Shown here: in pieces, positions 1-34,507 of the stretch
Numbering within the stretch: position 1 is the stretch's first letter
How the letters are laid out: every line of letters starts with the position of its first letter
The notes under the pieces: generated by a model
Database searches by the model: none
Seen by the model: only the letters and a program-made list of their open reading frames with translations
What the model was told of the DNA's origin: nothing
DNA from: Crambe crambe
Lineage: Eukaryota > Porifera > Demospongiae > Poecilosclerida > Crambeidae
Assembly: GCA_963924555.1 (NCBI GenBank)
Contig: OZ004584.1
Location: 186,001 to 250,000 of the forward strand
DNA length: 64,000 nucleotides
Direction: 5' to 3'
Position numbers and translations under genes: made by a program

Positions 1-281
1 TGAAGTACTTCTACTATGATTATGAATCTCAAGCCCTCGATCCTGTTGCCCTGTGGAGAGAAGCCTCTTTCAGGGACCTGATAACCCTCCACCCTGTCAA
101 ACACCCTCACAACCTTCTCAGTGTCCACCATTTTTACAAGACATTGCAATACCAGACCTTGTCACTTGACCTGGTCCATCGGCACTATCAGATAAAACAA
201 CTCTGCAAAGATCTGCCCCCTCACCTTCGACCTCATCCCACAAACAAAAGTGATCTCAGTTGTTCATACTTCGGAGCATAG
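1..281 (+). CDS. P0: 3' end of a chondroitin-synthase-family gene that stops before the GalNAc-transferase domain (partial)
   Basis: An open frame enters from outside the window (first full codon at 3) and ends at TAG 279-281. The peptide, with segments such as YFYYDYESQALDP, ITLHPVKHPHN and SVHHFYKTLQ, aligns with the linker that opens exon 3 of gene A just downstream (YFLFDYDGQSLNP, ITIHPIKNLNN, SLHHFYKTLE). In gene A this linker continues for about 400 residues into the GalNAc-transferase domain. Here the frame ends shortly after LCKDLPP and is followed by low-complexity TTTG repeats, so the C-terminal domain is missing. It is either a GlcA-transferase-only gene or a decayed copy. The N-terminal half lies outside the window and cannot be judged. 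Confidence 0.75.
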   Translation, partial: KYFYYDYESQALDPVALWREASFRDLITLHPVKHPHNLLSVHHFYKTLQYQTLSLDLVHRHYQIKQLCKDLPPHLRPHPTNKSDLSCSYFGA

Positions 282-466
282 TTATTGTTGTTTGTTTGTC
301 TGTTTGTCTATTTGTTTGTTTAGTTTTTTTAGTCAATTTGGCATAAACAAATTTCCGTGGGATAATTATTTGCGCGGATTAATGTGGGCGTATCTGATAA
401 CGAAGCCAAGCTCATCCTGTTTGCATTGTTAGATCTCCATGATCAGACTGCAAGCTGGTGGACGAG

Positions 467-3400
467 ATGCGTGTCCAATTGAGCAGCCTGAGGTCCACCT
501 TGCTCTTTCTTTTAGGCATGTTTTTCGGATGGCTACTTACCTTTTATGGTTCGTCTTCCATCCCCGAGTTCTCCTCGCTACAAACACGTGAAGTGCTCCA
601 AACTATCGAAGCATCTCCCCAGGTGGAAAACATGGAGAAGAAAGAAGACTGTGTATGTGGCATGGCGGCAGAGAGACTGAAGCGTCTCTCCAAAATGGCT
701 CTCTTTTTCAGTCATCTGAACGCGAGCAGCAAAGCCCCGCCCACTGCTGTGGAGGACAATGAAAAGGGCCTGAGGGAGTTCCTGTACCCACCCAACCAGC
801 ACCCCATATTGGACGCGGGAGATAGCATGAGATATAAACCAGATATTCAATCTGAACCCAAGATGCTTCAGGAGGAGTATCTGTTTAAAAAAATACTATT
901 TGTAGGCGTACTAACTCAAGAGGAGTACCTACCAACGCGGGCTAAATTCCTCTATGAAACATGGGGGAAGGAGGTCGATAAGTTAATTTTTTTCGTTGGA
1001 GAAGATTGCAATATATCGACAGAGCTGTCGTATTTGCCAGTTATTAAACTGAAGGGAATACCTGATAAGGTGTATCCTCCTCTCAGGAAATCATTTGCCG
1101 TCATGAAGTATATGTACGAGAACTTCAGAAACCAGTTTAACTGGTTTATCCGTGCCGATGATGACATGTATGTCCGTACCAAGAAGCTGAAAGAACTGCT
1201 GACTCAGCTACACCCTTATGAGAAGGTGTATCTTGGAAGGGCAGGGACAGGACGAAAAGCAGACCTTGGTCGGTTACGACTCTTACCACATGAGCGGTAC
1301 TGCATGGGAGGGCCAGGGATTATCCTAAGTATGGCTTCCCTAAGAGGGGTGGGACCTCACCTCTCCAACTGCCTCAATGCAGGTACGTCAAGACATTACC
1401 CCTGGGTCAATCCCAGCTATATAACTCGTCACTAGCTGCAGGATTTTTCATTAATACAGTGGAATTAACTCTCTGAAAGAGGACAAACCTCTCAACAAAG
1501 GACAATCTATATTTACTCTGTACAAAATAACCTCTAAAAGAGGACAAAAGGATGGGCCCATTATTCAGAGGTTCCCACTGTGTCCCCTTCCTAAATGGCT
1601 AGAACAGTGTTAGAATGATTTTGTATTTCTAGTGTTAAGATACAGCGAATCTAATTACAATGATGATGATGTGGAGATAGGACGGTGCATAAGCAGGAAG
1701 ATAAATATCCAGTGTTCTTCTTCCACAGAGGTTGGTGACCTTTAATATTCAAACTTGCTGTGGTCCATGCAAGAAGTGTGTTTAGCTAGAGATGTCATGC
1801 ACAGAAGTGTGTTTAGCTGGAAATGATTATCCCACATTTCAATAAACTAACACTTCTTTTCATTTGAATGCCTCCATGCAGTGGTACATCTTTTTCAAGC
1901 ATTCATAGATCTGTCATACTACATACTGGTTTACATGTATGTTGTTATTCACTAATCCTTTATTCACCATTCAGTCTCGTCAGTACTTCTTGTTTGACTA
2001 CGACGGGCAATCACTCAACCCGATGACCTTGTGGACTTCACCGATTTTCAAGAAAGTGATCACAATTCACCCCATCAAGAACCTCAACAACATGCTCAGT
2101 TTGCATCACTTCTACAAGACTCTCGAGTTTGAGAGTGACTACAAAAACCTCCATCAAATGGCAGATTACTTGAATGATTTGTGCAAGCAGTTACCGCCAT
2201 ATGCTTCTCCTCCACTGTCAGCCAGTGCTGGTTGCAATCTCACATTCCACCCTCAGCTAACTTACTTCAACCAGTCTTCAAAGCTTAGCCACCAGGCACC
2301 TAGTGGGAATGTAGTTCACAGAGAAAGAGTACCTTTCTACTTGAGACCAGTAGATAGATACGACTTACAGCCATGGACACGATTCAATGACACTATCATA
2401 CAAGAAATGAACCTTTTTGCACCTGAACATGCCCCCCAGGCTAGTCTCAAGGGAGAGATCTATCGTGTCTTAAGCATGCTCATGCCATACATCAGATCTC
2501 AGTTCACCCTCCAGACTATGAACATCAAGCATATTTTGGATGGCTACACTCGATTCAACCCTCACTTGGGACGAGAGTACATTTTCAGCTTGAAACTCAC
2601 AGCTGGAGAAACAAAGCCTCCAATTTATCGAAAGTATCATGTAGTTCGTGAGATAGAACCACAAATTTCTGTGGTGAATGTTCGTGTGAGTCCACCTAGC
2701 CACACAGTAAATGTGATTCTCCCTCTTGCAGAAGTAAACGCAAACTTTACTGAATTTTTGAAGAGTTATGCTCATGTTGGTCTGCAGTATTCTGTGAATA
2801 AACTGCATTTGGTGGTGGTGGTTTTCTCGGATGAAAATGCCAAGCTGGTGGAAACTGTACTGAATGATTTCACTGTGAACACTTTCCCACTGTCTACAAC
2901 TCTGACAAAAGCTCAGGGATTGTATAACAACCTCAGGGCATTTGACATTGGTATGGCTGTGCTTGAAGATGAAAAGGCTTTGGTTCTTTTAACGGATGTA
3001 AATCTACATTTTGCTCCAGGATTTTTCCGAAGGTGTCGTTCAAATACTGAGTTGGGAAAGCGTGCATATTTTCCCATGCCATTTATGAGTTACCAGTCTA
3101 ACTCCACTACTTTCTCTGATGGATCTCTCCCTCACATTTCTGCAGATAAGGGACAATGGGATTTCTATAACTTTGGAAGTGCGTGTTTATACAAACAGGA
3201 TTATGACAGAGTCAGAGGAGTCCACAAGAGACAACATGCTTGGGAATTGTTTGAGAGTGTTTCAGCAAGTCACCTCGACGTGATGCAGGCCCCTGAGCCT
3301 GGCCTCTTCTGGACATGGGGAGTGGAGAGGCCATGCCATAATCTGACAATGGAACATCAGAAAGACATTTGCTTGGAAATGAAGAAAGGACGGGCCCATG

Positions 3401-3477
3401 AGCAGGGTGAATTAGCGCAGTACTTAGAAGGACTGGAATCAAGGAAAGACTCCTTTTTAGCAAACACCATTTTTTAA
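467..3477 (+). CDS. A: chondroitin synthase/CHPF-like glycosyltransferase, GlcA-transferase motif intact, GalNAc-transferase motif degenerate
   Basis: Proposed exons are 467-1382, 1633-1730 and 1975-3477, giving about 838 aa (human CHSY1 is about 800). The ATG at 467 is chosen because the frame upstream of it has only GTG. A type II Golgi anchor occupies about residues 7-27. The fringe-like domain has TWG, then ADDD at 230-233 (metal/UDP-sugar site) and YCMGGPG ending at about 284. Exon 2 encodes DDDVEIGRC, which matches the DVEVGRC block of CHSY enzymes, and its donor GTTGGT is weak. In the C-terminal CHGN domain the expected CDVD is TDVN at about 679-681 and no GWGGED motif is seen. Predicted role: chondroitin GlcA-transferase or polymerisation partner in the Golgi. 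AATAAA lies at 3595-3600. Confidence 0.85.
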
Positions 3478-3853: not shown

Positions 3854-3929
3854 TAATTACGCACATGCGCAGTCAAAGAATGCAAGATCCTACTGATGGT
3901 GCTATGGCTATAGACGAGGTTAGGGGAAA

Positions 3930-5265
3930 ATGAAACATCTGAAATACTTCCTCGGTGGATGTGTGACTGGCTCGCTGGTGGTCTTCATAATGTACTTTTT
4001 CACGGTGTACATACAAGACTTGAACGAGTATGAAGGATACTATGAGGACATTAGCAGCTACATCGAAAAGGAGGCCGACAGTGATACTTCCGCAGCAGAT
4101 TTCCCTGCAAGAACAGCTACAGGACAGAAAGAAACACCACAAAGATCATCAGGTATCCTTGACAGATTAAAATCTATTTTAGTCACTAAAACCAGTCACT
4201 TCTCTCCAACTAATCCGGTACTTGCAAGTGAAAGATTTCTGTTGTCTATAGTTTTAGCATCACTGAATCAAATGGAATCCACTGTAAATACAATAAATAG
4301 TACATGGGGACAGAGTGCAAAGGATTGGAAAGTTTCAGTGGGCACAAGAGGTTGGAACAAGGAAAATTTATCGTCAGTATCCAGTGTTAATGAGCAGTAT
4401 GTATTAATAGCACAAAAGTGTAAAGATTTCCCTACAGGAAAAGCACTTTCTCCAAAGCAGCTATTTTGCTTGTTAACTGAGATTCATGACTCTTACATTG
4501 GGAAATATCATTGGTTCATCATTCTCTTGAATTCCACTTATTTCTCTTACAATAAACTGACTCAAGTCTTACATCTACTCAACTCTGAAGAGGTCATCTA
4601 CATGGGTCTACCAGCAACTCATACAGTATCAAACAAAAAATCCAAACAATCTGATGTGATTCATTTCTGCCAGAATGGACCAGGGATAGTGTTGAGCAGA
4701 AGAGCATTAGAGAGGATAGTCCCACACCTTCGTGAGTGTCTGAAGGAAAAGGCATCCAGGGAAGGAGATGTAAAGCTGGGGCATTGCTTCACGAAAAAGT
4801 TAGGCATCACCTGTTCACTATCATTAAAGGTACAAATTGTGAAAAATTTTAATGGGCATAAGAAAAACTGTGCTTAAGTCGTGCATGTCAAATGAGCAAT
4901 AACCTCGAGAATGGGTCGTTCTAAGTGTTGTTATTTTTTGAATGGCATGCCTTATGGTTTCAAATATGTCTCTTTGTCATAGTTAAGAGGTATATAATAT
5001 TCACCCTTCTGGGAACTGAATAGAAGGACATGGCTATTCACAAATTGCTTTCAAGCATGCATTTAGAGTGTCTAAGCATAATGGAATACTAGTTAGAAAC
5101 ATCCATCTTTCCTTCTTCATGTCTATAAATTCATGTACCACACATTGTGTAAACAATGGAGTCATGAATGCCTGGCTGTTCTCAGGTTCATGTGAGAGCA
5201 TTCAGAATGCTCTGTATGTGTTCATGTACACAGGGGGAGGAAGGTCATCTTTTTTTCTTTTTTCT

Positions 5266-5296
<31 letters not shown>

Positions 5297-7333
5297 GGTG
5301 AGTGTAAATAAAAGTGTGACCACACTAGCATGTGAAGTGGGGGGGTCTAGGGGGCATGCTCACCTAAGCCTCATTGGATTGGATCTGGTGCATTCTCTGA
5401 GGTTCTAGGGTGATATCTCAATTCCCACTGAATATAGCTAGCTAACTACGTTTAAGCTGGAAAATAAACAACAACAACAACAACAACAACAAAAAGAATC
5501 TAAGAACATGGAAGCTTACATATTAATCTACAACCAGTTAAGCAACTACCATCAAGTAGATTACTGCTACTCAGTAGATTCACATTTATAGCTAGCTAGC
5601 TAGCAATGTCATGAAAAAAATTTATTTTGATGAATCACAGTAATGAAAAATGATCATATCACTCAAAAAAGAATGCATGATGCGACTTTTGACCATTAAA
5701 ATCTAAATTGGTTGTGGAAAAAATTTTAAGACTTGTGAAAATGATAAAATTTTTCATGAGATCAACAACACTCAAATGTGAACCTAACCATTCAGCATGA
5801 TGCCTAGATTGACTTTTGACTATTAAAACCTAAAAAGTGGTCATGAACGTGAATCTAAGCATTCAGCATGATGCCTACATGATTATCAGTAAAAAATGTT
5901 TCTCTCTCATGCAGATTGACCCTTCAATACTCTTTCTCTCTCATCCCAATGACCTGCGCATGCTTGAAAACTCCATCACCATTTCTCCAGTCACGAGCAT
6001 TGACCACATGCAATCTCTCCATCTCTACAGACTTGCTCAAGAAATGAACCAACTCAAGATTGAATTAAACCACAAATCTGAACTAGCAAGCACCACATGC
6101 TCAGACCTCTCCAATTCCAGACTGGAATTCCAATCTAATTATTGCAACTTCAGCATCATGCATTCGCAAATGTCCGCTCCAAATTTACAGCTTCTGGAAT
6201 CTCACCCATCCCGACTGAGTGAGGTGGTGAAATGGCAGTTCATTAGGGGAAAGAGTGTGTATAACAGTGAACACTCTAATCCAGTAGGTTTTCTACCAAA
6301 ACACACTCAGCAGGAGCTACTGTTTGTTTTGAACAAAGCGCTGCAGTTTCTCAAAAGGAGACAAAGTTTGACGAGAGTTCAGAACACTTATGTCCGTTCA
6401 GGAGGCAGTATTGGGAAAGAATACATTCTAGACTTGGAAATGAAAGGAAGAAAAGGAGTCATTGAAAGAAGATTTTCCATAATTCTTCCTCTTCTTGCTA
6501 ATTTGATGCTCATCGAGCAGAAAGAAGCTCCTCCTTCCTTGAACAAGATCATCCAATTCATCATCCCCTTAAGTAATGTTGGTACTCGACTTACAGACTT
6601 CTTGGCAATGTACGAAGAAATTTGCCTGAAAACAAATGAAAAATGTCGTTTAAATTTGGTCATTTACGGAGAAAAAGATGTAGAACTGATTGCTGAGTCA
6701 CTCAAAAGGTTAAAATTAAAATATCCTCAGGCAAGATTCAACTTGATAGTCGGGAAAGGGAAATTCAGTCGAGGAAGAGCATTGGGGTTAGGTCTTGCGG
6801 AATTGATGGACTCTGACCTTGCCTTCATCTGTGATGTTGATATGACAGTGGAAAGGGACTTCTTGAAGAGATGTGAGAGGAACACGATCCAAGGAAAACA
6901 AGTGTACTTCCCCGAGTTCTTTAAGTATTATGATATGGAATATGTCTATCGCTTCAGTAGAATCCCTCAGGGCAGGATCATTAGCAAGAAGCATGGACAC
7001 TGGAACACTTACTCCTATGGAATGCTATGCATTTATAAGTCCGACTACATCTCTGCAGGTGGTTATGATCTTGGAATTGAAGGGTGGGGTGGGGAAGACG
7101 TCCAGTTCGCTGAGCGGATCTTGAGAACAAATTTGACTATCTTCAGAGCTCCAGATCCGGCCCTTTCTCATCGCTACCATGACAAAGTTTGTAGCACCAA
7201 ACTTACTCCAGTGCAGTTTGCCAGCTGTATATCATCACGCAATCAAGATATTGCTGACCGTGCCCAACTGGCTGAGTATGTTTTTTACTTAGAGAATAAA
7301 TGCAAAATAAAGCATTGGAAGTTATGGAACTAA
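3930..7333 (+). CDS. B: chondroitin-synthase-family protein, GlcA-transferase motif lost, GalNAc-transferase motif intact
   Basis: Two exons, 3930-4829 and 5915-7333, joined in phase 0 give about 772 aa. A short upstream ORF (ATG 3904) ends at the start codon. The N-terminal anchor is at about residues 5-27. The fringe-like domain keeps TWG and NGPG, but the position of the DDD motif reads LLNST, so GlcA transfer is unlikely. The C-terminal CHGN domain keeps CDVD (DVD at 607-609), an HGHWNTY segment, GWGGED at 690-695 and LSHRYH, all typical of an active beta-1,4-GalNAc-transferase. Predicted role: the GalNAc-adding half of a Golgi chondroitin polymerase, needing a GlcA-transferase partner such as A or G. 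Its intron carries a dispersed repeat up to the acceptor. Confidence 0.88.
5276..5298 (+). repeat. Poly(G) run preceded by a T-rich stretch
   Basis: Twenty-three consecutive G follow a T/C-rich run (5250-5275) in the intron of gene B. It is simple sequence and its length is likely to be uncertain. Confidence 0.8.
5640..5885 (-). repeat. Dispersed repeat family R2, copy 1
   Basis: Contains two degenerate units with CATTCAGCATGATGCCTA and TTGACTTTTGAC. This is the reverse complement of the motif TAGGCATCATGCTGAATG seen near 27740 and 62855. The end of the repeat runs to within about 30 bp of the exon 2 acceptor of gene B. Confidence 0.6.
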
Positions 7334-9278: not shown

Positions 9279-10709
9279 CTAAAAAACCCATAATTTTCTA
9301 TGATGTAATCCGCATTGCTTCTCCAAGTAAAAGACATGTTCAGCTAGAGTAGTTCTATCGGCAATATCTTCATTCCGTGATGAGATGCAGTTTGCAAACT
9401 GTTTGGGGGTCAGATTGGTGTCACAGACTTTATCGTGGAAACGGTGTGAGAGGGAAGGATCAGGTACCCTCATAATGTCCAGTTTTGCACCAACGATTCT
9501 CTCAGCCAAGTCTACATCCTCCACACCCCAACCTGTAATGGCAGTATTGAAACCTCCAACGGCATCGTAGTCAGATTTATGGATACAGAGCATCCCATAC
9601 CCATACGTGTTCCAATGCCCATTTAATCTGTGAATGCTATAGGCACTAGATTCTGGAGGCTTGCGGTTGAATTTGTACACATAGTCCATATTGTAGTATT
9701 TGAAGACTTCAGGGTAATACACTCTCCTGCTCTGTATTGCATTTTGCCGGCAGCGACCAAGAAATGCTTTTTCAATGGTCATATCGACGTCACACATAAA
9801 TGCCAAATCGTCTCCTCTCAAACTGAGCATGCCCTGATGAAGAGCAGTGCCCCGACTGAAGTGCCCTTCTCCTCGGATGATGTCATAGTCAAAGGAGTCC
9901 TTGAAATTGGGAATTGTTTTGTTCACTACCTGTTCATCTTCATCACTGAAAAGGACTAAAATAAGTTTGCAGGATTCTTGTGTGTGGACACAGAGGTCTA
10001 AGTACATATCCAAGAATAAAGATAATCGATCGGACACTCTGTACAGGGGAATAATGAAGTTTACTGTTTTCTTTGCAGGATCATTATGGACAGAAATCAA
10101 GGTGGGTTTCGGTTGAAGTGGGCGGAGCAAGCTTATCCGTCTCTGAAAGAGCCCTTTCTTGTCTTGGAATTCTAAATCCAGAATGTACTCGCGACCTAGC
10201 GTGCTGACAAACCTGAAATACACGTTGATTATCTGTATCAAAGTGAGTGTCCTACTCTCTCTTGGCTTTAGTAGTTCAATACTATCCTTGACTATATTCT
10301 CCAATTCAACCTTCATATCTCCTACAATTCCAGAGGATGGTCTTATGGTTTCACCCTGGTATAGCAAGTTTTTGTGAATCAGCTTCCAGCGAGGAACTTC
10401 GTCTTTATTGGAAGGAACGTAACCTTTAAGTTTTCTTCTCACCTCTTTTTCCCATACTTTTCCCGTCTCGCTCGATACTTTTCCCATCTCTGGGTCCCTC
10501 TCTATGCGAGTGCTTTCGCTCTCTTCGTCCTCCGGTGTATTAGCGATTATCTCCAACCCTTCTGGGGGCTGCCTGCGCGAGACCACCTCTTGAGCATCCC
10601 TGCTTTGCATAATGACTACAGAGAAATAGCAGACAACATACAGGAGGGCTGCTGATGCCAAACTGCCTAGGAAAAAACCTCGAAGAAACGTCTTGGATCG
10701 CGACTGCAT
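9279..10709 (-). CDS. C: single-exon, single-domain chondroitin GalNAc-transferase (CSGALNACT-like)
   Basis: One uninterrupted frame of 476 aa starts at the ATG 10707-10709. The N-terminal anchor is at about residues 8-34, followed by a charged stem and then only the CHGN GalNAc-transferase domain. Visible motifs are FSRGTAL, CDVD (DVD 307-309), GHWNTYGYGMLC, GWGVED from about 393 and LSHRFHDKVC. The fringe-like domain found in A, B and D-G is absent, which is the architecture of CSGALNACT1/2 (GalNAc-transferases that initiate or extend chondroitin). The catalytic block is close to that of B and D, so it could instead be a local cluster member that lost its N-terminal half. It has no introns, although all its intact neighbours do. 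Confidence 0.87.
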   Translation of the reverse strand: MQSRSKTFLRGFFLGSLASAALLYVVCYFSVVIMQSRDAQEVVSRRQPPEGLEIIANTPEDEESESTRIERDPEMGKVSSETGKVWEKEVRRKLKGYVPSNKDEVPRWKLIHKNLLYQGETIRPSSGIVGDMKVELENIVKDSIELLKPRESRTLTLIQIINVYFRFVSTLGREYILDLEFQDKKGLFQRRISLLRPLQPKPTLISVHNDPAKKTVNFIIPLYRVSDRLSLFLDMYLDLCVHTQESCKLILVLFSDEDEQVVNKTIPNFKDSFDYDIIRGEGHFSRGTALHQGMLSLRGDDLAFMCDVDMTIEKAFLGRCRQNAIQSRRVYYPEVFKYYNMDYVYKFNRKPPESSAYSIHRLNGHWNTYGYGMLCIHKSDYDAVGGFNTAITGWGVEDVDLAERIVGAKLDIMRVPDPSLSHRFHDKVCDTNLTPKQFANCISSRNEDIADRTTLAEHVFYLEKQCGLHHRKLWVF

Positions 10710-12769: not shown

Positions 12770-15061
12770 CTAGTCCCAGACTTTTTTCTGCTTGTTGCAT
12801 TTATTCTCAAGATAATAGATATAATCGGCAAGTCTCCGTCTATCGGCAATGTCTTCATTTCTTGAACTGACACACTGATAGTACTGGTCCTTGCTCAACT
12901 TATTGCTACAGATCTTGGGGTGGTAACGATGAGAGAGAGCTGGATCTGGAGCTCTCATTACTTCCAAACCTTTACTTATCACTTCTTCGGCTAGCTGAAT
13001 ATCCTCTCCACCCCAACCCATAATTTTAGTGTTATACCCACCTAGTGTGTCATAGTCAGACTTGTAAATGCACAGCATCCCATAACCATATGTACACCAG
13101 TGACCGTGATTCCTGTTGATGGCGTAACCAAACTTCGGGTGCTCTTGGAATCGATACACATAATCCATATTGTAGTATTTGAACACCTCGGGATAGTAAA
13201 CACGCCTCCCTTCAATTGCATTACGCCGACAACGATCCAAGAAGCTTCTTTCGATTGTCATATCAACGTCACAAGTGAAGGCCAGAGCAGAAGGTTTAAG
13301 GGTGGAAATGCCAAGATGGAGTGCTCGTCCACGACTGAATTCACCGTTACCATAAATGATGTTGAACTGAGCCTTGGGGTACCTATTCTGGTAATCTTTG
13401 AGGGTTGATTGAATGGTGACTCGATCCTCTTTACCATACAGAACCAGATTCAACCGACAGTTTTCCTTGACTCTGAGGCAAAGGTACTCGTAGATTTTCA
13501 TGAATTCAGCAAATCTTGAGTTTACGTTGCTCAGGGGAACAATGAAATCAATCATCTTGTTCATTGACTCTGGACCGGCATCTTCCAACACCAAAGGTAC
13601 TGACTGATGTGGACGAAGAACGTGCATTCTTTGAATCTCCTTTTTCCCATTTCCATTTTTTATTTCCACATCTAAAATAAGCTCCTTCCCTCTAATGCCT
13701 AGGTAGCGGAAAAAACCGTAATCCACTCTGACGTAAGTTGAGTTGTGGACATGCAATTTCCTCTGTAATACAGTGGCCTGTTGAGCTGTCGATTCCACTT
13801 CCAGTTTCAGTTCTCCATCGTACCACTCTCGAGGTTCAAGCCGGTGACTATAATAAGACGACGTTGGATTCACGACATTCCAACCCCTAACCTCTCCCAT
13901 GCTCGGCGGCGGCAGGACTTCAACCTTAAGTGGCTGAGGTATGCAAAATGAGCTGTTATAAAGTCTGTCTTCGTATTTCTTGATCTGGTTGAGATGATAC
14001 TTCAACTCCCGTATCTGGTCAACCACATGCAAGACTTTCATATGATAAGCAGCAACCACTGGATACACGGTGATAAAGTCTTTGTGCTCTTCACGCCACC
14101 CTGAGTTGGAATCTACAGAGAGGTTTTGATCATCCTCTATAAAAAATTCATGCCCTGCCTGGAAAAAAATCAAAATAAGAATTATGAATAAAGGGGGATA
14201 AAGGGGGGTGGAGAATTTTTAAAAATAATAACTCACCTTGCCAAATTTAAAGCACGATTGATGTAATGTGTTATCGAAACAGCTTCCTAAGGCTTGGTCA
14301 CCTCTGACAGTGCCTTCTGTCCAATTGAGGCAGTTTTGCAGCTGTGGTACTATTCTGTTCAAAGCACCTTGGCTGAGAAGGATACCGGGTCCACCTAAAC
14401 AGTAACCATCTTTACTGTCTACTTTTCCCATGTAGTACGTCTCATTGGGATCCATCTTGGCTAGCAACCGTTCCAATGGCTTTACTGAGACGTACACTGA
14501 TTCTGTTACTATCAAAAACCAATGATACTCAGTTATAAACGACTCTTTAATTGCCTTCAATAAGCAAAATAATTGCTCGGGTGACATGCTTGAACCATTG
14601 GAGAAATCCTTACACTCTGGGGCTAAAAAATAATTTCCATGTCTACCAAAAGTCCTTTTGGTATCTCTGGTACCAATAGCTATGTTCCATCCATTGATAT
14701 TCTGTCCCCAAGTAGTGTTCACAACGTATTGAGATACTTCTGCACTGATCAAGGGTGTAGCTATCACTGGAAGTAAAAGTCTTCTAAATAGTTTACTCTG
14801 TCGACTTTGGTGGGCTTTGGACTGCGAAACAGTACGTGTACTTCTAGAGTTAAAACTGTAAAGCTTTCTAATGACGGCAGGACTCTCAGAATCCTCCGAA
14901 GTGGATATTTCTACTTCCTTCAAAGTCTCAGTAGCAGATAGAGGAGCATTCCACGTCAATGTCAGTCCGCTTGAAAATAGGATGTAGAGTACGGTGGTTA
15001 CTAGACAGCCAACGAAAAATCCGTGTATAGAAGGTTTACTGAATCTCATCTTTGATCTCAT
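12770..15061 (-). CDS. D: chondroitin-synthase-family protein, GlcA-transferase motif lost, GalNAc-transferase motif intact
   Basis: Exon 1 is 14237-15061 and exon 2 is 12770-14158, joined in phase 0 to give about 737 aa. The ATG at 15061 is chosen because the longer frame upstream starts with TTG. The N-terminal anchor is at about residues 13-34. The fringe-like domain keeps TWG and YCLGGPG but reads VTESV where active enzymes have a DDD motif. The CHGN domain keeps CDVD (DVD 572-574), GHWCTYGYGMLC, GWGGED and LSHRYH. It is predicted to be a GalNAc-transferase subunit of a Golgi chondroitin polymerase. The intron is only 78 bp. The gene is head-to-head with E, with 137 bp between start codons. 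Confidence 0.88.
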
Positions 15062-18100: not shown

Positions 18101-20243
18101 GATTGCATTGGCACCGATTGTAGGCACTAGGCTAAGCATTACAGCTTTCTATGTATTCAGCTGCCTGCCACTTATAACTCAACAGCAAAATCTTCTCACT
18201 GTGACTCAAATGTTGCACATTGCCCTAGTAATGACATCATTGGTTCCTATACCTGCAAAAAAATAAATCATTGACAAGGTAACCCCAAATGATAATGCAT
18301 CGTAATCAAGTCTACTATGTGCCAAAGCATCAAGTCTTTTAAAAGACAAATACCTTAGCATGCTTCCAAATATTTGACCATACCTTTATTCATCTTTCTC
18401 ATGTTGCAATCACTCATTATTATTATTTAATAAGGGCACCTGGCCCATTTTTAATGAGCCTCATCATTTCTCAAATCAATGTGCTCTGATGAAATTGTTC
18501 CATCATGTTTTCTGGACTAGCCCTGTCATATATACACGATTTGGGAAATTTCTTTCTTTTCCTGTTTACTTGTACACAAATGTCTCTACGGTACAGTGCC
18601 TCCAACCTGTGAACTTTGATTCCAGTATAAAGTACATGAATTTCAGTACTTTCAGCCATTTTATAAGTAATTGTGTGTTACCTAAATAGTATTTTAGGTC
18701 AAATTTCAGTAAGAATACCGATGAATCAGTATTGTTGGTTGGAGGTGGATTTAGCTGAACCACAAATATGTGAAATTTTTCACTCCTTCCTCAGGTTTCC
18801 CTGGAAAGTTACTTCATGTATGATGGGAAAGTTATATCACGAGAACCCTCAAACCTCTGGAAACCACAGTTTGAAAATATGATTACTCTCTACCCAATAC
18901 GTGACAACCACCACATGGAGGCCGTTCATGCCTTTAGCCTCTCCAGAGAAATCAGCAACCACCAAACAGAAGCAATTTATCTTCAAACAATGCTGAATGA
19001 GAATTCTATTTGTGTAAATTCCTCCAAAGAGTGTCCATTACCTTCTCCAAAGATCTCTGCCATGACTAATTATTCCAATTTCAGTATGAAGTGTCAATTG
19101 TTCAAGCGAGGTTATATTCCTGAGCTTCGCAGGAAAGTGGTGAATTGGGAGATTGTGGAGGGTACCAGAGTTTACAATAGTTGGGATCTTTCCCCTCAAT
19201 CTATGGTGCAAGGTGACTTTAATAAGGAGTTGCAATATGTAGCCAACCAAGCCCTTGCTGTCTTGAAACAAGATATTCCTGGCGTACAGCTTCTTAACGT
19301 GGTCACTTCATATGTTCGGTATCGAGGAAGCACAGGACGTGAGTACATACTGGATTTGGAGTTAAAGGGGACCATGGGACCCTTTGAAAGGCGTGTCTCT
19401 CTCCTTTTCCCTCATGAGCCAAAATTGAAATTGTTACCCGATGCTCCACCTAATGCCAGAACGATACAAATTAATTTTATTGTTCCCCTGAAGAGTCTCA
19501 GCCGTGCCAAATTGGGAAAATTCCAAAAGCGATTTTACCTCATGTGTTTGAAGAAGAAAGAAAATTGTAAAATTATATACATTTTGTTTAGTGCCTCCAA
19601 AAGAGAACTGTCTTTTTTGAAGGCTTATTTGGCACGTTACAAACGAAGATATTCTCATTTTAGATACGACTGGATCCATGCCAATGAGAAGTTTAATTGG
19701 AGTAGAGGATATGAATTAGGAATGTCTAAACTTGCAAATAACGATTTGGCTTTCATTGTATCAACAGACTTGAGCATTGCAGAGCATTTCATGAATCGAT
19801 GTCGCAGAAATACTCTTCAGGGAACTCGAATTTATTACCCAGAGATCTTCAAGTATTATAACATGCGATATGTTTATACTGGAAAGAGACACCCTAGGCA
19901 TTATGATTATATTCGACAGCACGGACACTGGGCCTCAGATCAAGCAGCCTGCATCTATAAATCAGACTTTGTTGCAATCGGAGGGTTCAGTGTTATCAGC
20001 CAGTGGGAAATAGATCCCCATTTAATCCAAGCTCGAATCAACGGCACACTGGAAGTAATGAAAGCTCCAGATCCAGGGATTTCTCGCTGGTATGAACAAA
20101 AACACTGTGATTCCAAACTACCTCCTGCTCAGTTTTCTAGTTGCGTAAGTGCACGCAGTGACAACCTTGGGGATAGAATTAGTTTAGCAAACTATTTGCT
20201 CCTGTTGGAGACAAAGTGTGGACAAGATGATCATAAATCGTGA
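15199..20243 (+). CDS. E: chondroitin-synthase-family protein with both catalytic motifs degenerate (candidate pseudoenzyme)
   Basis: Exons 15199-16071 and 18795-20243 are joined in phase 0 across a 2.7-kb intron to give about 773 aa. The N-terminal anchor is at about residues 9-31. The fringe-like domain keeps TWG and YCNGGPG but has TTSNV in place of DDD. In the CHGN domain the position of CDVD reads STDL and the GWGGED region reads SQWEID, although RCRRNTLQG, YYPEIFKYYN and HGHW are well kept. The frame is fully open, so this is not an obvious pseudogene. It is probably a structural or regulatory partner of active cluster members, as CHPF-type proteins are in vertebrates, and that role is inferred. 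Confidence 0.85.
16375..16460 (-). repeat. Dispersed repeat R3, copy 2
   Basis: On the - strand it reads TTTAAATGTGAAATTCGGTC, then AAGAATTGAGAAAG, matching the copy at 7484-7560. It lies in the intron of gene E. Confidence 0.6.
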
Positions 20244-20529: not shown

Positions 20530-23009
20530 ATGTCAACTGGAAAGCCTCAGAAAGCAGGATCGAATCAAGAGAAAGGATACAAATACTTTATATTCGGTGT
20601 TGTGACGGGCTGTATGCTCTATGGTTCCTTCAGTGCCATATCATTGAACACAAGCTGGAGTCATGGGAGAGTGTCTTCCAGTCCAGTGGATGACAACGTG
20701 GGGGGTAACAGATTACTCTCTGTCATAGTGACAAGTGTCTCCCAAGAGCTGGAAGTGTCTGAGATGATTGGAAGGACATGGGGTGCTCATAGCACCTACA
20801 GAGTTGCAACAGGGGGTGGCGAGGAAATACAATCAAACATTTTTCTACTTGCAAAGAGGTGTGGTGACTTCCCGTCTGGAGCGGCTCCATCTCCAAAACA
20901 AATGTTCTGCCTTTTGCAAGTCATCCACGATTCTTATATCAACTTGTACCAGTGGTTTCTCATTGGTAGTGTGGAACTTTATGTGGCCATACCACAGTTG
21001 GAACGATATCTGAATCAATTGAATCCATACTCTTTGCTTTATCTCGGCAGACCGCAGTATTCTGCTTTCTTTCACGGTCATTACTGCCTGGGTGGACCTG
21101 GTGTGATACTCAGTAAAGTTCTCTTGCAACAGTTGGTGTTTTACTTGCAGACGTGTGCCAACCAGGATTCTGCTGGCAACTGGGATCTTGCCCTGGGGCG
21201 GTGTCTGGGGGATAAATTACAGGTCACCTGTCGCACGTCAGATGAGGTGAGGAGGAACTAGGTCCATTATTAAGGGTAGTGGCACATTCCACTGGTTGCC
21301 AAGGAAGCCAATCTCGTTATCTTATTCACCTATTCATGTTGTATGGTAATGTCCCCTGGAAGTTATGTAAACATTTGTGACCACATGGTTACCGTGTGCC
21401 ACCACCCCCTTACAGGGTATCATCCCCTCTCCTGACAACACAGAATCTTGTATCGATGCCTGATTTAGCTACAGGGATCTCTTGGTTCCCATCTGATGGG
21501 TTTCTGATTGAGGGAAGTCTCAACCTATTCATTTTATTCTTGTAGGCTACAGGCCGCTTCATTTGGAACAAGGGTCCCTCCATCAAACCACTCCAACTTC
21601 AGACTGATGAAAAGTTCTCCAATATGCTCACCTTCTACCCCATCATAGACTCCGCCCACATGAATGTAGTCCATTATGTGGCCATGGCACGAGAGGCCGC
21701 TTACCACCAGAGCAGAGCCAATGCTTTCAGACATTTACTGAACTCCTCGCAAACTTGTACAAACTCTTCTTCTGCTTGCATTTATGTCCCAGAAGGGAAG
21801 GAGATTATGATCCAAAACTACACAAGACTAACTCGTTGTCCCAAGCAATCTAGTGGTGGGTATCATCCCGCATACGCCAGGCGGAAAGAGGAAGTCCTTG
21901 ATTGGGAAACCATTGAAGGAAACTATATTTATACATCGCACAGTACAGCTGCTGCTGTCTCATTGTTCGGTGAGAGAAAATCAGAGTTGAATCTTGTCGT
22001 AGAGAAGGCAGTTGAAGTAATAAACCAAGCCTCTTCGATTGGGTATAAATTAGGGAGGATCATTAGTGCTCACGTACGCTACAGAGGCTCTGTGGGAAAT
22101 GAGTTCATTTTGGATTTGGAGTTATCAGGAGGTGGCAAGAAGATAAAGAGAAGGGTATCTCTTATTCGACCACATACCTTTCAAGTGAGGGTAATAGAAG
22201 ACGCACCATCGAAACTCCTTGATAAGACCATCGATTTTGTAGTTCCTTTGAGTAATGTCAACAATCGCTTTGGCAACTTTATTAAGAACTATGAAGATGT
22301 GTGTATTAAGACTGGGGAAGCATGCAGGTTAAACTTAGTCGTCTACGGCACAGAAGATGTAAATAGAATAAGAACTCAAATGGAAGCGTTGAAGAAGAAA
22401 TATCCAAAGTTTCTCTACAAAGTGATTCCGGGACAGGGGAAGTTTAGTAGGGCACCATCGCTGGATCAAGGAATGGCCGTTTTAGAAAGCTCAGATCTTG
22501 CTTTCGTTTGTGACGTTGATATGTCTATAGGTCAGACATTTCTGGACCGATGCAGGCAAAACACGATACAAGGGAAAAGGGTCTATTTCCCCACAATCTT
22601 CAAGTTTTATAATATGGATTATGTGAACTGGGGCACGAGAAACAAGGTAAGTTACAGCATTAACTCCCAGCACGGTCACTGGGGGACGTATGGTTATGGT
22701 ATGATGTGTATTTATAAGTCGGACTACTCGAAAATCGGAGGTTATAACAAGAAAATCAGAGGCTGGGGAGGCGAAGACTATGCCTTCACTGATCTAACTG
22801 TTAAGAAGAAGTATGAAATATTCAGGGCCATAGAGCCTTCCCTCTCTCATCACTGGCATCCAAAGAACTGTGACGGCTTGAGCAGATGGCAACACTCCAG
22901 TTGTTTATCTTCGAGGAGTTTGGTTTTAGCAGGAAGAGGTCAGTTGGCTATGTACATTGATTTCTTGGAGAAGAAATGTGGCGTTAGGAATGGACCTGCC
23001 AGACACTGA
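20530..23009 (+). CDS. F: chondroitin-synthase-family protein, GlcA-transferase motif lost, GalNAc-transferase motif intact
   Basis: Exons 20530-21246 and 21546-23009 are joined in phase 0 to give about 726 aa. It has the shortest N-terminal half of the cluster, with an anchor at about residues 17-38. The fringe-like domain keeps TWG and YCLGGPG, but the DDD position reads GSVEL. The CHGN domain is intact: FSRAPSLDQGM, CDVD (DVD 562-564), GHWGTYGYGMMC, GWGGED and LSHHWH. Predicted GalNAc-transferase half-enzyme in the Golgi. The small intron contains a TIR element (21270-21412). It is transcribed toward DDX42, and the two stop codons are 456 bp apart. Confidence 0.88.
21270..21412. mobile_element. 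MITE of the TTAAGGGTGGTGGCA terminal-repeat family, copy 1
   Basis: Left end TTAAGGGTAGTGGCAC (21270-21285) and right end GTGCCACCACCCCCTTA (21396-21412) are imperfect inverses. It lies inside the intron of gene F. The same ends occur at 30969 and 31424 in an intron of gene G. Confidence 0.6.
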
Positions 23010-23465
23010 AAAAGGTATTGCTGCTTGCAAAACAGACTCCCCCCTCTCTCATTTCTCCATCAACAATGAAATTGTTTTACTTTCATTTTATAGTGAATGT
23101 CATTTATTAGTGAAATGAAATCCAATTAAAACAATAGATACCTTACCTCAGACTTGATTATGTGTGTGTGGCCTGTAAGTACTAAGCACTGCATTGCATC
23201 TCAGCCATTAGCATCAGAATTGATAAGGGGAGGGGCAGATGTAGAGACAAGGCAAAGGGGGGAGGGGCAGATAGGGGAGAAATAAGGGGGAGGGGCAGAT
23301 GTAGAGATAAGGGGGGAGGGCAGGTGTAAGGGATAAAGAGTTTTTGCACATTTGGTATATGTATAAAATAAATTTAATCCAATTGAGCCCTGAGGGCATG
23401 GCCTGGGGGTATAAGGGGTGAGCGAGTGGGTGTGCACTGTATGAGGGAAGGTACATGTCCTCAAG
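23010..23465. other. Convergent 3' spacer between F and DDX42
   Basis: Contains a degenerate GGGGAGGGGCAGATGTAGA tandem array (about 23225-23325). No coding sequence was recognised. Confidence 0.6.
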
Positions 23466-24132
23466 TTAGTCCCAGCGACTCTTCCGCTTCCTCTTTGGGG
23501 GAGGGGCCTCACTGGATTCAGTGGGTGTGGTTTGTGAGGGGCTTAACGTGGAGAGGGAAGAGGCTGAAGAAGAAGCTTGCTTGAATCTCATTTTGTAATT
23601 ATTGAGGTAAGTTGCTTTGAGAATGGATGTTTTGTTTCCACCAGGTCCCACCAAGGACCCCATGGGACCCAGGGATGCTGCTGCAGGAACATTCACGGTG
23701 CTGTCCCTGCTAACAGTAGCCATGGTCTGAGAGAGAGAGAGAGATGGTCACTTACACAGGAAAGAGAGAGAGAAAAAAAAATTTTTTTTACCTCACTGGT
23801 GGCTCCAAGACCAGGACGAACTCGATAAGTCCTTGATCCACCAGATCCTCGCCCTTTTCCTCCCTTCCTTGCTTCCCCTTGTCCAGCCACACCCCTTCTC
23901 CCCCCATGCTTCTGGCGAGAACGTCTGAATCGAGGATTCTGCATGGCTATGGACATCAACTCCTCAGGCACTCTCTGGTCGGCCACTTCCTGTGAGAGAC
24001 AAGGAAAAGGACACTCTGAAAGAGGACAAACCTCACAACTAAAGATGATCTAATGTCTACAAAATAAAGAGGACAACCTCTCTACAAAGGACAAAAGGAT
24101 GTGTTTCAAGTGTGTCTATTATTCAAAGGTTC

Positions 24133-24168
<36 letters not shown>

Positions 24169-29681: not shown

Positions 29682-32600
29682 CTAAAGTGTATCCAGCAAA
29701 TCATTGGTGATTAAGAGAGAGCCTAAAATCTTCTTGCTTCCAATGGCGTCTGCTTTGGCATGCATGCAAACAGTATGAGAGTTTCCAGACAACCCACTAC
29801 AAGTTCTTGTCCGATAATTCCTCCTCAAATAAGGCTCCAAGGCACGCATTGCATAAATATTTGTATGCAAAGTCTTGTCGATAAATCTGATATCATAATT
29901 CCTATTAATAGCACTTGTAAGCTCCACCTTCTTTATGATGTCATAGTCCGACTTGTAAATGGCAACAGGTTGATAGTTATACCAGACAAAAAATCCTGTA
30001 TCTGCTGCTATCATCATTGAGGGGAATTTGGGAAGGTGTTCAGATATTAACTCTGGTTTGTAAAAGGAGAAAAGTGTCGGGAAGTATGCTTGGTGACCCT
30101 TTACCACATTCATCTTGACGTGCCATATGAATTCTTTTGTGAAAAGGAAAGTGGGATCCATCAGAACAAACAGATCGTTCGGTGCCAATTTGCCAATTAC
30201 ATGATCGTATCCAACTGGTGAAGATGCATTTCCCTCCATCAGCTCATATGAACTAATCAATTCTTGTGGGTGATGTGAGACTACCGTGGCAACCTGTGAC
30301 CGCGCTTTCTCGTTACTGCCAAACAAGACTATATGAAGGTGTGTCTTCAGCCGATTCATAATGCAAACCTCTTCATACATCTTCAAAAACTCCCCCAAAT
30401 CTGTCGTTGCTCCAACACTAACGATCACATGAATGATTTTCATCTCTAGCGGACGTGCCAATTGATATGAAGCCATTCCTGCTCCTTGAAAAGGCAAGAA
30501 TACATTAGCAACGTATTCGATAGCACTATCCACACCTGTTTTGTGAACAGAAAGATGGAAAGTATATTGTACTCCTGATGAATGATCGATGACCAGAAAT
30601 CCATCAAATAAGTGATAAGGAGGTATGAACCTCTTCTTTCTGCTCTCTCCTTCATTCATGATATCGATGAGTACTTCAAGGGCAGAGTTTATACCCTTCC
30701 GGACTCGACTTGGCAGGGCAATGGCAGGAAAGTACTCGTGGGAAGAGAAAAGAGTGCTCGAGTTGAAATACTGCCATATTGGGAGCTCAAAACGAGAGGA
30801 AGGGTTCGTTGCTATGTCATGCCACAGCCACCTAGTAAGGGGGTGAGTTAATTAATTACTTAATGCAATCATTTGTATGGGTTCATCACAGAAAAATGTA
30901 AAAAATGTAAAAAACAAGCTGTCTTTTTTTTTTTCAAAGGAAAAGTAAGTGACTGTACTTCTGGGAGCTTAAGGTGGTGGCATACTTCTTACCACTGGCT
31001 GATTTTTGGTTTGTAGCTTTCTAGCACCACTCTCTAAAAAATTACAGAAGGGTTTGTTGATATCTATTTTATTTCTCGGTTTAGCCCAGAAACTTAAATA
31101 CTCACTTTTGGGAAGTCAAAAAGTAAAGAAGATACCAACAAATCCTTCTGTAATTTTGTAGAGAGGGCTAATAAGAAGCTCTAGGCCAAAAATCAGCCAC
31201 TTAATTCCAGCGGTCAGTGAGAAGCAATGCTTTTTTAGAGTAAAAAGACTCATAGCACCTGTAAGAATTAACATTTTTTCTTCATTTTTAGTGTGTGTAT
31301 TAGTGATATACTACCTTATAACTCTGTGCAATTTGAAGTCCATAGCTATAGTAATTTTGGAGTTATGTAAGAAAGACTAAAATTTAATTGTTAGCATGTG
31401 CGTTGCTATGTGCCACCACCCTTAAAGAATGCTTTGTATATACTCTCAGACCCTTTGAAGGAAGGTGGGGTTTTAAGGGGAGGGGCAAGGGAGGGTGGGG
31501 TTTGATGGGGAGGGGCAAGAAAGGGAGGGGTTGTGAGGCTATGAGAGGGAGGGAGACTGACCTCTTCTGCTTGTAGCGTTTCATGTTCTCTGGAACAAGA
31601 TGTGAGATTCGTTCAATGTCTTTTTGTATGAGGGCTTCCTCCTGTACCAGTTTCTTGAGTTTGAGCTCTTGGAGGTACTGGTGGACGCAGTACATGAGAC
31701 GAGGGTCTTTGATGGGGTGTAAGGTGATGGCCCGCTTAACGCTCGGACTGGTATAAAGTTCCGACGTCTTCAAGATACGCTTGTAATCTGTCCAGAAGAT
31801 GATGCGAGTCTGAGAGGGAGGGGGGAGGGGGAGGGGGAGGGGGAGGGAGAGGGGGAGGGAGGGGAGGGGAGAGGAGGTGAGAGGTGAAGGGGGAGGGGAG
31901 AAGGGAAGAGGGAGGAGGGGGAGAGAAGGGGGGAATGATTAGAAGGAGGAGATGAAAAAAAGGTGTTAAATCGTAAGATGAAAAGACTGAAAGAAGAGCA
32001 ACATGACCTACAAGATTCAACTCATTAGTCAAGGGATATTTGTAGTGGACATGTATAGACAGAGACATGCCCGTGTTCAGGGGACACCTATGCCATTACC
32101 ACTTCACAAGTGTGAACATCAATAATGCAGTGTCAATATGAGAATTTTCTCACTAGCAAGCTAAGAGTAGAGTCTTTGCTAATCTATTTTCCCATGGTTG
32201 TCAAGGTGGTGGTAATTTGGCAGAGCTGTAGAAAATGCTAACTAGGATGCATTTGGTATACAATGCTACACTCTGCAGAGATATTGTGGCATGCATAGCA
32301 ACATTGCTAGAAATATGAAACCAATTCATTTGGTGAGAAAAATTTGGAAGACATACTGAAAATATTGGTTGGAATTTCCTTTGAAATGGGTCAGTTATGT
32401 AGCAGTTATTCAGATGATATTTCCAAGAGGTCAGCAGAGGTCATGAGGTCATATATAAAGACTTTACTTACCTCCCAAGACCATGTGCACTGAAGCTTCA
32501 GCATCTTGCTCACACAACGCCCAACCTCCACGTCTTCATTATAACTCACCACCACAGTCTGGAAGGGGAGGGGGGAGTGAGGTAGTAACAAGAACGAACA

Positions 32601-32873
32601 ACAACAAACCACTGAACCAGCTGCTCATACACCAGTATTATAGCAACACAAACTATCACCAGATAAACTGAAAGCTTCTGGTGCAAAGTATCCAGCACAG
32701 AATATCCAGTGGTCTGTGCATTTTCTAAGTAAACGAGAGCCTTCCCCATTAAGTACATGTGCATAGCTCCCATAGCAACTACATGATAACTTCAGTGAAC
32801 ATTCTCCCAATGGAAAGCAAAAATACAATCTAAGGGATTGTTGATGGTATTTTAATCTATGAATGGGATAAGT

Positions 32874-32969
<96 letters not shown>

Positions 32970-34507
32970 CTGAGATGAAAGGTTTCACACATCAACACAA
33001 TAAAGAAAATTGCTCAACCAGAAGCACAGGAGGGAAGTGCTTGAGAAATATATAAAAGCTTTCCCTCATGATTTCTAGCATGGTGCATCATAGCCTATAG
33101 TGAAGCCAGTGAGATGGTCAGGGCAATTATGGAAAATAGAAAGTAACCATCAATGGGGGGGGGTGTGACGGTTCCAAGGCTTCACTCTGTTTGCTAGCAA
33201 GTGACCAAATTTCCAGGAAGTGCCATTGTGAGCAGGCACAGTCTGACAAGCACGTCTTTATTGAATACTTTGACGAAGATTTCATTCCCCATGGCAGTCT
33301 CTCTATAATATGGGCTGGACAGTTTCCATTCATTTTTACAAGCACAAGTATAATGTCTGCTTCGTTACAAGGCAAAGCATTTCATGTCAACTCGTTAGAA
33401 GCAAGCATTTAACGTCTGATGCAAGAATTAATGTCTGAAGCAAGCATCATCTATTCTACTAAAAAGCAACAAAAAAAAAAGAATTCAGTTATTGCATTTC
33501 TGTGAAGGAGGGGGATCTTTTTCTCCACACCCCCTGGTCTCCTCGTCTCCCATACTATATACAGGAGGATGCCCCTCTGATCAATTAGGATAGGATACTA
33601 ATCAGGATACTAATCAGGATACTAATCACGATACTACTCATTACTTGGTGCTTACCTCTAAGCAAGTATGAAGATGAGGAGCTAACTTTCTGAGCGCACT
33701 TCGACTGAATATGACTCCAGGACCTCCCATGCAATAATGCTCATCCTCGGTCAACTTTATCCGAGTTCTATCATCAGGACGACCAAATCCAGGACACCCC
33801 ATGTATATGTCCTGTGCTGGATTGACGGAACTCAACAGCTCAAGAAGAGGGTCCATTTTCACGTAGACGTCATCATCCGATCGCATGAAGAAGTCGTACT
33901 CGTCTATGAAATGATCATGCATATATTTGAGCATGTGGTAGACCTTTCTCTGAGGTGGGTAGACAGAGTCATTGACTCCTGGGAGGGTAATGATTGGAAG
34001 GTTTACTTTTTTATTTTCAGAATGTGAAGAGAAGTAATAAAGACCATCTATGCCTCTTCCCCATGTGTTGTTGATAGCAACTGCTCTGGTTTCTAGGTAC
34101 TTTTTCGCCGTGACAACGCCGATGAACAACAGTTTCCTGGGAGCAAGCTCGTTGGAGAGATGCCGGTAACGAGTTTTCAGATTACCAGGTGGGGAAATGG
34201 ATCTATTTAAGTACTCAAGATCAAAATGCTTCCTTTTCCGTTTTGAGTTGCTTTGGTCTATTATGCTGGCATCTTCAAATTGCCCATCAAAAGATTGCCT
34301 GTACCGCTCAAGCAATTCCAGTTCCAAATTGTCTCTAAGGTTTGCAGAATTAGGATGAGAAGTGCCCTTCTCCTGTCTTCCACTGCACAAAGGACTGAGA
34401 GACTGAAGCAGAGGGTCTTGGAAATAACTGATCCACATTATGGGAGAGATCACCATGCCTATGAAGATACCAAAGCAAACTGCTGGGATCACCTTCTTTG
34501 GTAACAT
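29682..34507 (-). CDS. G: chondroitin synthase/CHPF-like glycosyltransferase, GlcA-transferase motif intact, GalNAc-transferase motif degenerate
   Basis: Exons 33656-34507, 32472-32558, 31562-31809 and 29682-30831 give about 778 aa with consistent phases. The N-terminal anchor is at about residues 8-30. The fringe-like domain is the most CHSY-like in the window: TWGRG, VYPPQRKVYHML, SDDDVYVK (DDD 211-213) and YCMGGPGVIFS, then DVEVGRC and CTWSWE in exon 2. In the C-terminal CHGN domain the DVD position reads LMDPT and no GWGGED is found, so GalNAc transfer is doubtful. Predicted GlcA-transferase subunit in the Golgi. It has one more intron than gene A. DDX42 starts only 143 bp beyond its stop, on the same strand. 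Confidence 0.88.
30969..31424. mobile_element. Larger MITE of the TTAAGGGTGGTGGCA family with a nested foldback
   Basis: Ends TTAAGGTGGTGGCA (30969-30982) and TGCCACCACCCTTAA (31410-31424). Inside, about 30995-31070 is mirrored by 31130-31210, for example CTGATTTTTGG against CCAAAAATCAG and ATTACAGAAGG against CCTTCTGTAAT. It lies in intron 3 of gene G. Confidence 0.6.
31811..31932 (+). repeat. GGGGGA purine tract at a gene G acceptor
   Basis: About 120 bp of almost pure purine. On the - strand it is a C/T tract ending at the exon 3 acceptor (31809). Confidence 0.9.
32877..32967 (+). repeat. Long (AG)n microsatellite
   Basis: About 45 uninterrupted AG units in intron 1 of gene G, the longest microsatellite in the window. 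Confidence 0.95.

Follow-up and report, generated by a model that had tools for sequence, protein, structure and literature searches.

In animals other than the sponge Crambe crambe studied here, both chondroitin-building steps are combined in one enzyme. Human CHSY1 or CHSY3 is described as occurring as a heterodimer with CHPF or CHPF2 and not singly, and the Escherichia coli K4CP as a monomer with two active sites in a single bacterial chain, both in the accessible part of PMC12748766. Mixing of the human complexes CHSY3(D261N/D263N)-CHPF and CHSY3(D718N/D720N)-CHPF brought polymerisation back to the wild-type level (PMC12748766), which showed that half-enzymes can work in trans and that the two activities need not share one complex. 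The EXT1-EXT2 heparan sulfate polymerase is a heterodimer of two-domain chains in which the GlcA domain of EXT2 is described as inactive (accessible part of PMC9675754). For EXTL3, GlcA-transferase activity is reported though its GT47 domain was predicted to be unable to bind UDP-GlcA (accessible part of PMC10570366), and by that report motif loss would be no proof of inactivity, while EXTL3 is said to have no GlcA-transferase activity in the accessible part of PMC9675754.

A window, i.e., the whole analysed stretch of 64,000 nucleotides of C. crambe DNA, was compared with these systems. Six of its genes (A, B, D, E, F and G) share the GT31, middle and GT7 domain arrangement of human CHSY1 and CHSY3, but CHSY3 has both sites in one chain and no gene found here does. 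Human CHPF and CHPF2 are two-domain partners with lost catalytic sites, which are resembled by E and, outside the window, by M and N; CHPF has lost both sites whereas A, G, B, D and F have lost one each. C is like CSGALNACT1/2 in having a GT7 domain alone, with an intact site, and differs in grouping with the B-F clade rather than with a CSGALNACT-like gene. The cluster is like EXT1-EXT2 in having two-domain chains with a dead domain, but the families differ (GT47/GT64 against GT31/GT7 here) and EXT1 has both activities, while no such chain was found here. K4CP, with two active sites in one chain, also differs from the divided sites of the cluster.

Organisation of the cluster

A sequence check showed that all eight chondroitin-polymerase paralogs (P0 and A to G) and the motifs quoted for them in the initial annotation were present in the window, and the gene models and residue positions bore out that listing. 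A, B, D, E, F and G each gave a Pfam match to Fringe (GT31-like) in the first exon and to CHGN (GT7) in the later exons, and C gave a CHGN match; both domains were thus joined in one protein in these six, and not in C or P0. The spliced models of A to G had no internal stops and only GT-AG introns, with C being intronless.

Exon 2 of P0 (1..281, forward strand) has its first 7 bases outside the window and keeps HPVK before a stop, and exon 1, with a Fringe match and the DDD motif, is located upstream of the window at C6:184736-185641. P0 is a 397-aa GT31-only protein which is GlcA-transferase-like. The annotated lack of a second domain in P0 held, with the qualification that the protein ends at its own stop at window position 281 and not at the window edge, and that its first exon is upstream.

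Gene A (467..3477, forward strand; exons 467-1382, 1633-1730 and 1975-3477) was started at the first ATG, the spliced model itself beginning at 458, and has an intact GT31 site (DDD, HPIK) and a lost GT7 site (TDVN, no ED, no HxxH). The GT31 site is also intact (DDD, HPIK) and the GT7 site lost (LMDP, RxxR) in G (29682..34507, reverse strand; exons 34507-33656, 32558-32472, 31809-31562 and 30831-29682). The GT7 site is intact and the GT31 site lost in B (3930..7333, forward strand; exons 3930-4829 and 5915-7333), with LNS and SPVT in GT31 and CDVD, GWGGED and HRYH in GT7, in D (12770..15061, reverse strand; exons 15061-14237 and 14158-12770; TES, YPVV), also started at the first ATG with the spliced model beginning at 15082, and in F (20530..23009, forward strand; exons 20530-21246 and 21546-23009; SVE, YPII). 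Both sites are lost in E (15199..20243, forward strand; exons 15199-16071 and 18795-20243), which has TSN, YPIR and STDLS and no HxxH. The single exon of C (9279..10709, reverse strand) encodes a hydrophobic N-terminal segment, as seen by eye, a middle domain and an intact GT7 site with GWGVED as its second motif, and no GT31 domain.

Catalytic-site residues

Site residues were scored at the ligand positions of the human CHSY3-CHPF structure in CHSY3 numbering. All ten GT31 donor, metal and base positions of CHSY3 (RDYKDDDDHK) were found in A, G and P0; beyond DDD, these include the seven positions R187, D231, Y233, K238, D342, H394 and K397. H394 and K397 are encoded in another exon than DDD and both were lost in B, D, E and F. 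At the GT7 site, B, D and F matched CHSY3 at 8 of 9 positions, R630 being changed to V in all three and also in the bifunctional relative P0010. The GalNAc site was lost in A and G and absent from P0. D718 was still D in A and G despite the lost GT7 site, as was D342 in B, D, F and H despite the lost GT31 site; H and J are GalNAc-only genes outside the window. By the CHPF-type criterion, loss of both sites, only E qualified in the window, and M and N outside it. The reciprocal loss proposed in the initial annotation therefore stood for A and G against B, D, F, H and J and failed for E, M and N, in which both sites are gone.

Family members in the genome

A total of 15 family loci were identified in the genome, three with the GlcA site, eight with the GalNAc site (interrupted in one of them by a stop), four with neither (one seen only partly) and none with both. 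K was counted from its GT31-like part alone. Two weak PF05679 matches on C21 (L032 and L033; 35-36 bits, several stops) and the PF02434 loci L006-L010, L013, L016 and L017, which were judged by eye to be ordinary fringe-type genes, were left out of the 15. The absence of a bifunctional member from the window, seen earlier, extended to all 15 loci, and the genome search proposed as the main way of refuting the division recovered no bifunctional CHSY from the assembly (143 Mb, 119 contigs) with PF05679, PF02434 and exon-2-relative queries, the last being a relative with both marks (H and K of GT31 and an intact GT7 site). A bifunctional gene may be missing from the assembly. A CSGALNACT-like pair, named from its architecture, was found on contig C8, one copy having an in-frame TAG, and the genome also had matches to the xylosyltransferase, GT43 and sulfotransferase families. 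J, approximately 7 kb upstream of P0 and with the second-best PF05679 score, was rejected as a bifunctional candidate on the GDR for DDD and SPVQ for HPxK in its exon 1.

A probable divided polymerase

The cluster probably constitutes a naturally divided chondroitin polymerase with its two activities split between paralogous subunits (probability about 0.6). The residue pattern and the genome-wide search supported the earlier claim that the paralogs share out the two catalytic sites between them. The residue pattern, its genome-wide extent, the CSGALNACT-like pair and the three family matches were observed directly, and we infer enzymatic activity, partner choice and a chondroitin product. Judged from their site residues, A, G and P0 would perform beta-1,3-GlcA transfer via the GT31 domain, B, D, F, H, J and the GT7-only C would perform beta-1,4-GalNAc transfer, and chains would be extended by GlcA-only and GalNAc-only proteins in alternation. 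By analogy with CHPF, the inactive domains may be retained as structural partners. Heterodimers with one live site per chain appear the most likely arrangement, with separate complexes taking turns as a possible one. Counting against the division are the D residues that persist at D342 and D718 in otherwise lost sites, and the relatives in which both marks occur together. A tentative extension, in line with the obligatory pairing and combinatorial complexes proposed in the initial annotation, which we hold to be somewhat doubtful, is an obligately heteromeric polymerase with exactly one live site per chain, produced by repeated reciprocal loss in the tandem cluster, in which several GlcA and GalNAc subunits combine to set chain length or type.

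Two inactive domains, one of A and one of B, were modelled and still took a GT fold, that of B exon 1 being of the GT31 type, with alignments that included live relatives and so helped this fold to be reached. Such folding would fit a partner role and argues against a scheme without mixed complexes, in which GlcA-only proteins have the fully dead, CHPF-like E, M and N as partners, GalNAc-only proteins either do the same or need no partner, and the separate enzymes meet the chain in turn. That scheme, although unlikely, agrees with the lack of both sites in E, M and N, as in CHPF, with the single-domain proteins C and P0, and with the joint wild-type polymerisation of separate half-active human complexes (PMC12748766); however, human proteins are described as CHSY-CHPF heterodimers and not as single proteins (accessible part of PMC12748766). 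Nothing in the present data separates it from the divided polymerase proposed above.

The product may also be another polysaccharide, e.g., branched or fucosylated chondroitin, with the halves differing in acceptor and not in step alone. In the sponge Sarcotragus, preliminary IR and NMR pointed to a chondroitin sulphate that is fucosylated (accessible part of PMC10971851), and GAG-like bands of the sponge Chondrosia withstood chondroitinase ABC (accessible part of PMC5742840). However, the donor-binding positions are those of CHSY3 and no examined sequence feature indicates another sugar, which makes this rather unlikely; it would be compatible with a divided polymerase and not opposed to it.

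Why vertebrates have four distinct chondroitin synthases is posed as an open question in the accessible part of PMC12748766, where catalytic ancestors for both CHPF and CHSY are held conceivable. If the cluster is a divided polymerase, subunit-divided activities would represent one more result of this type of duplication, and the genes would be a source of ready-made single-activity chondroitin enzymes. A divided system would make the pairing question directly testable and would be relevant to the question of true chondroitin synthesis in early-branching animals. A literature search that had most subscription journals outside its reach gave no report of sponges having a divided chondroitin synthase.

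Relatives and phylogeny

Approximately 100 relatives of this type, the genome's own copies included, were collected; their source codes, such as lgn, ena and jgi, are presumably for the most part those of environmental or host-associated assemblies. A crystallin of the genome matched no sponge protein closely, with 41 bits for 4iau, a Geodia protein, against 68 bits for the best match. Relatives of the A type (52-58% identity with A) and of the B type (about 50% with B) had the same sites kept and lost as the window genes to which they correspond, and so did the D-, E- and H-type sequences of the tree; in the B-type P0089 several GT7 positions were changed. P0009, P0010, P0049 and P0116 each lie on a contig of 2.5-3 kb as a long open frame that spans the intron positions of the window genes, which suggests that they are spliced transcripts from relatives and is an indirect sign of expression. 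In seven relatives the H and K were found alongside an intact GT7 site, in P0010 over the full length of a bifunctional protein and in P0033 and P0111-P0115 in the second exon, the only part covered; the division is thus not a general trait of the group.

In the GT7 tree, the clade of cluster-type genes was placed outside cnidarian and bilaterian CHSY. A tree required several changes at each of the two sites. A single clade of GlcA-site-positive proteins, a trait-defined group tested after the tree was seen, was rejected (p-AU 1.9e-6). C fell within the B-F clade (support 94/83, and 100/97 for the wider clade). The tree contained no named CSGALNACT and one gene of the CSGALNACT-like C8 pair, which was separate from C and lay outside the B-F-C-H clades. 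This separate pair, together with the two independent queries of the 143 Mb and 119 contigs that gave no bifunctional gene, renders it improbable that the GalNAc-only members work as CSGALNACT-like initiators of chains or on side branches, beside a bifunctional polymerase missing from the assembly, for which the full-length P0010 and the second exons P0111-P0115 with both marks would speak. Decay of the degenerate sites, with several copies being pseudogenes on the way out, accords with the stop of P0 just past its GT31 domain, the in-frame TAG of one CSGALNACT-like copy and the altered GT7 positions of P0089, but is highly improbable given the open frames, the GT-AG introns, the fold kept in the two modelled inactive domains and the site patterns shared by A-, B-, D-, E- and H-type relatives.

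Finally, the GT7 tree joined G to CHPF (97/95). This placement was distrusted because the branch of G is very long and because the GT31 domain of G grouped with bilaterian CHSY with a support of 87.

Gene models and active-site residues

Gene models for the eight chondroitin-polymerase-like paralogues of the cluster (A to G and P0) were built from open exons spliced at GT-AG sites, and the modelled proteins A to G contained no internal stops. The predicted lengths were 841 aa (A), 772 aa (B), 476 aa (C), 744 aa (D), 773 aa (E), 726 aa (F) and 778 aa (G), with A and D counted from a few codons upstream of the first ATG. P0 comprised 397 residues with a stop shortly past the GT31 part, and its first exon precedes the window, which spans C6:186001-250000. 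In A, B, D, E, F and G, Pfam scans identified Fringe (GT31-like, GlcA-transferase) in the first exon and CHGN (GT7, GalNAc-transferase) in the later ones; C had CHGN without Fringe, and the second exon of P0 had a short CHGN stretch. The Glyco_transf_7C profile matched B, C, D and F and showed no match with A, E and G.

The positions scored were the donor, metal and base residues assigned in the accessible text of the human CHSY3-CHPF study (PMC12748766): R187, D231, Y233, K238, D261-D263, D342, H394 and K397 for GT31, and P626, R630, R697, D718, D720, E806, D807, H831 and H834 for GT7. In the alignment, A, G and P0 were identical to CHSY3 at all ten GT31 positions (RDYKDDDDHK), B, D and F kept one of ten (D342), and E kept Y233 in one of two alignments and no position in the other. 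B, C, D and F showed PVRDDEDHH at the GT7 positions, the sole difference from human being at R630, where the bifunctional relative P0010 also has V. The same positions were PVNDN--WG in A, S-SDTYDRR in G and PLWSD-DRE in E. The DDD and HPxK motifs are encoded by separate exons, so losing or keeping both together counts as an additional, distinct indication. Motif loss should not be taken as certain loss of activity, since the accessible parts of PMC10570366 and PMC9675754 conflict over the activity of EXTL3.

Genome-wide census

Profile searches of the 143-Mb assembly (119 contigs) produced 19 exon matches with PF05679 (20 of 20 candidates scored) and 17 matches with PF02434 (24 of 24 scored), which together with neighbouring sequence gave 15 family loci. 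The GlcA site was intact in P0, A and G. Eight loci had an intact GalNAc site: B, C, D and F in the window, H (C6:81.7-84.1 kb) and J (C6:about 173-177.6 kb) outside it, and two CSGALNACT-like loci on C8. Four had neither site intact: E in the window, M and N on C19 (at 435 kb and 1521 kb) and K on C11, seen in the GT31-like part only. Of the ten GT31 positions, H kept D263, D342 and H394, and J kept D231, K238 and D262; J lost P626 and R630 in GT7 and kept the other seven positions. None of the 15 loci found by the profile searches had both sites intact. A further query with P0113, an exon-2 relative carrying both H394 and K397 (H+K) and the GT7 site, returned 16 matches, namely family loci and two weak C21 stretches and nothing further, with H as the top match (41%). 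The split of the two sites described in the initial annotation was thus borne out and enlarged to 3 GlcA, 8 GalNAc and 4 neither, and its statement that no bifunctional member is visible also holds across the assembly for the PF05679, PF02434 and P0113 queries.

The two CSGALNACT-like loci, L024 (C8:6371091-6372365) and L025 (C8:6327441-6328727), are highly similar with ~44 kb between them. One copy, read by eye outside the scoring, has an in-frame TAG.

Site states of relatives

Three protein searches, the third of which scored the best 7998 candidates by shared words, yielded at least 138 related proteins. The 154 rows aligned in the state table were 138 proteins, 14 sequences of the genome under study and two human stretches. 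R630 was present in 38 of the 154 rows, which comprise the CSGALNACT-like gene and sequences from human and other animals. Of these, 29 had DDD, H+K and the GT7 site all intact, 5 lacked the first part and kept the remainder, 3 kept GT7 without H+K (CSGALNACT-like gene, P0137, P0138) and 1 was partial. Among the 116 rows without R630, both marks were readable in 86 and 30 were unreadable at one mark. Of these 86, H+K was kept with GT7 intact in 8 (P0010, P0033, P0111-P0115 and P0027, a mite protein with a gap at 630), kept with GT7 lost in 11 (A, G, P0009, P0001-P0008), and both were lost in 7 (E, M, N, human CHPF, P0108, P0110, P0129). H+K was lost with GT7 intact in 60, which include C, near-copies of window genes and a few hard-to-align starts (e.g. 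P0102). Rows that lack R630 and have an intact GalNAc site, including the bifunctional ones, were highly variable at H394 and K397, and the intervening P395 was kept in 61 of the 68 rows that could be read there. Full-length relatives were GlcA-only (P0009), GalNAc-only (P0049, P0118 and, by eye, P0116), intact at both sites (P0010) or at neither (P0129). P0033 is a B-type relative with HPIK and an intact GT7 site, and its first exon lies outside the sequence seen.

Going by equal bp figures, P0004, P0052, P0056 and P0100 (A-, B-, D- and H-type) appear to share one 430,637-bp contig, and P0038, P0057 and P0108 (B-, D- and E-type) one 10,578-bp contig. The cluster therefore seems old.

Phylogeny

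The tree used 56 rows, with 440 columns drawn from the middle and GT7 region. One clade (100/95) united the GlcA-only clade (100/100), the H clade and the B-F-C-E clade with J and the bifunctional-type relatives (91/70). Opposite it were G, M, N, CHPF, the CSGALNACT-like gene and the CHSY proteins of cnidarians and bilaterians. Five of the rows (G, M, N, P0129 and the CSGALNACT-like gene) sit on long branches, and their placement is unsure. The GT7 state required at least five changes, as did the H+K state (four without P0033), the H+K count omitting single-domain rows and rows without a readable mark, with P0116 set by eye. Such counts cannot separate gain from loss; we infer losses because regain of many ligands is unlikely. 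A constraint placing all H+K-positive rows together, tested with the tree already in view, was rejected (p-AU 1.9e-6).

Pathway and proposed division of labour

Profile searches of the same genome also matched Xylo_C, GT43, Sulfotransfer_2 and EXT-type GT64. Xylo_C and GT43 are the families for two of the four linker steps. Judged from sequence, a chondroitin-type product is plausible. The sponge chondroitin literature is thin: in the portions available, preliminary IR and NMR suggested a fucosylated chondroitin sulphate in Sarcotragus (PMC10971851), and sponge GAG-like bands were chondroitinase ABC-resistant (PMC5742840).

According to the accessible text of PMC12748766, the human polymerase pairs CHSY1 or CHSY3 with CHPF or CHPF2 in a heterodimer whose two live sites are both on the CHSY chain, whereas here the live GlcA and GalNAc sites would be on different chains. 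The inactive GlcA domain of EXT2 in the heparan system is a partial parallel (PMC9675754, in part). The same human study reports wild-type levels of polymerisation when two complexes, each with one site inactivated, act jointly, and it puts forward a distributive mechanism. Since such half-inactivated complexes polymerise together, a divided system could be made up of mixed dimers or of separate complexes. The interpretation in the initial annotation is partly supported: the two sites are divided between paralogues, and the obligatory, combinatorial pairing that it proposes is one possible arrangement.

Neighbouring genes and other families

DEAD-box helicase-like exons (Pfam DEAD, one fragment) were found between F and G at window 23300-29000 on the minus strand. 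Beside the cluster were a DBF zinc-finger exon (40445-41242, minus), an ATP synthase alpha/beta-family exon (43944-44408, plus) and a protein kinase domain within a long open frame (55654-57267, plus). Between J and P0 (L038, C6:176000-185999) were exons resembling, by eye, a disulfide isomerase-type protein with a thioredoxin fold. Elsewhere in the genome, Peptidase_C1 had 121 exon matches, many of them clustered (contigs C3, C9, C15 and C21 among others), and the beta-gamma crystallin domain had eight matches on contigs C9 and C16, several of them adjacent.
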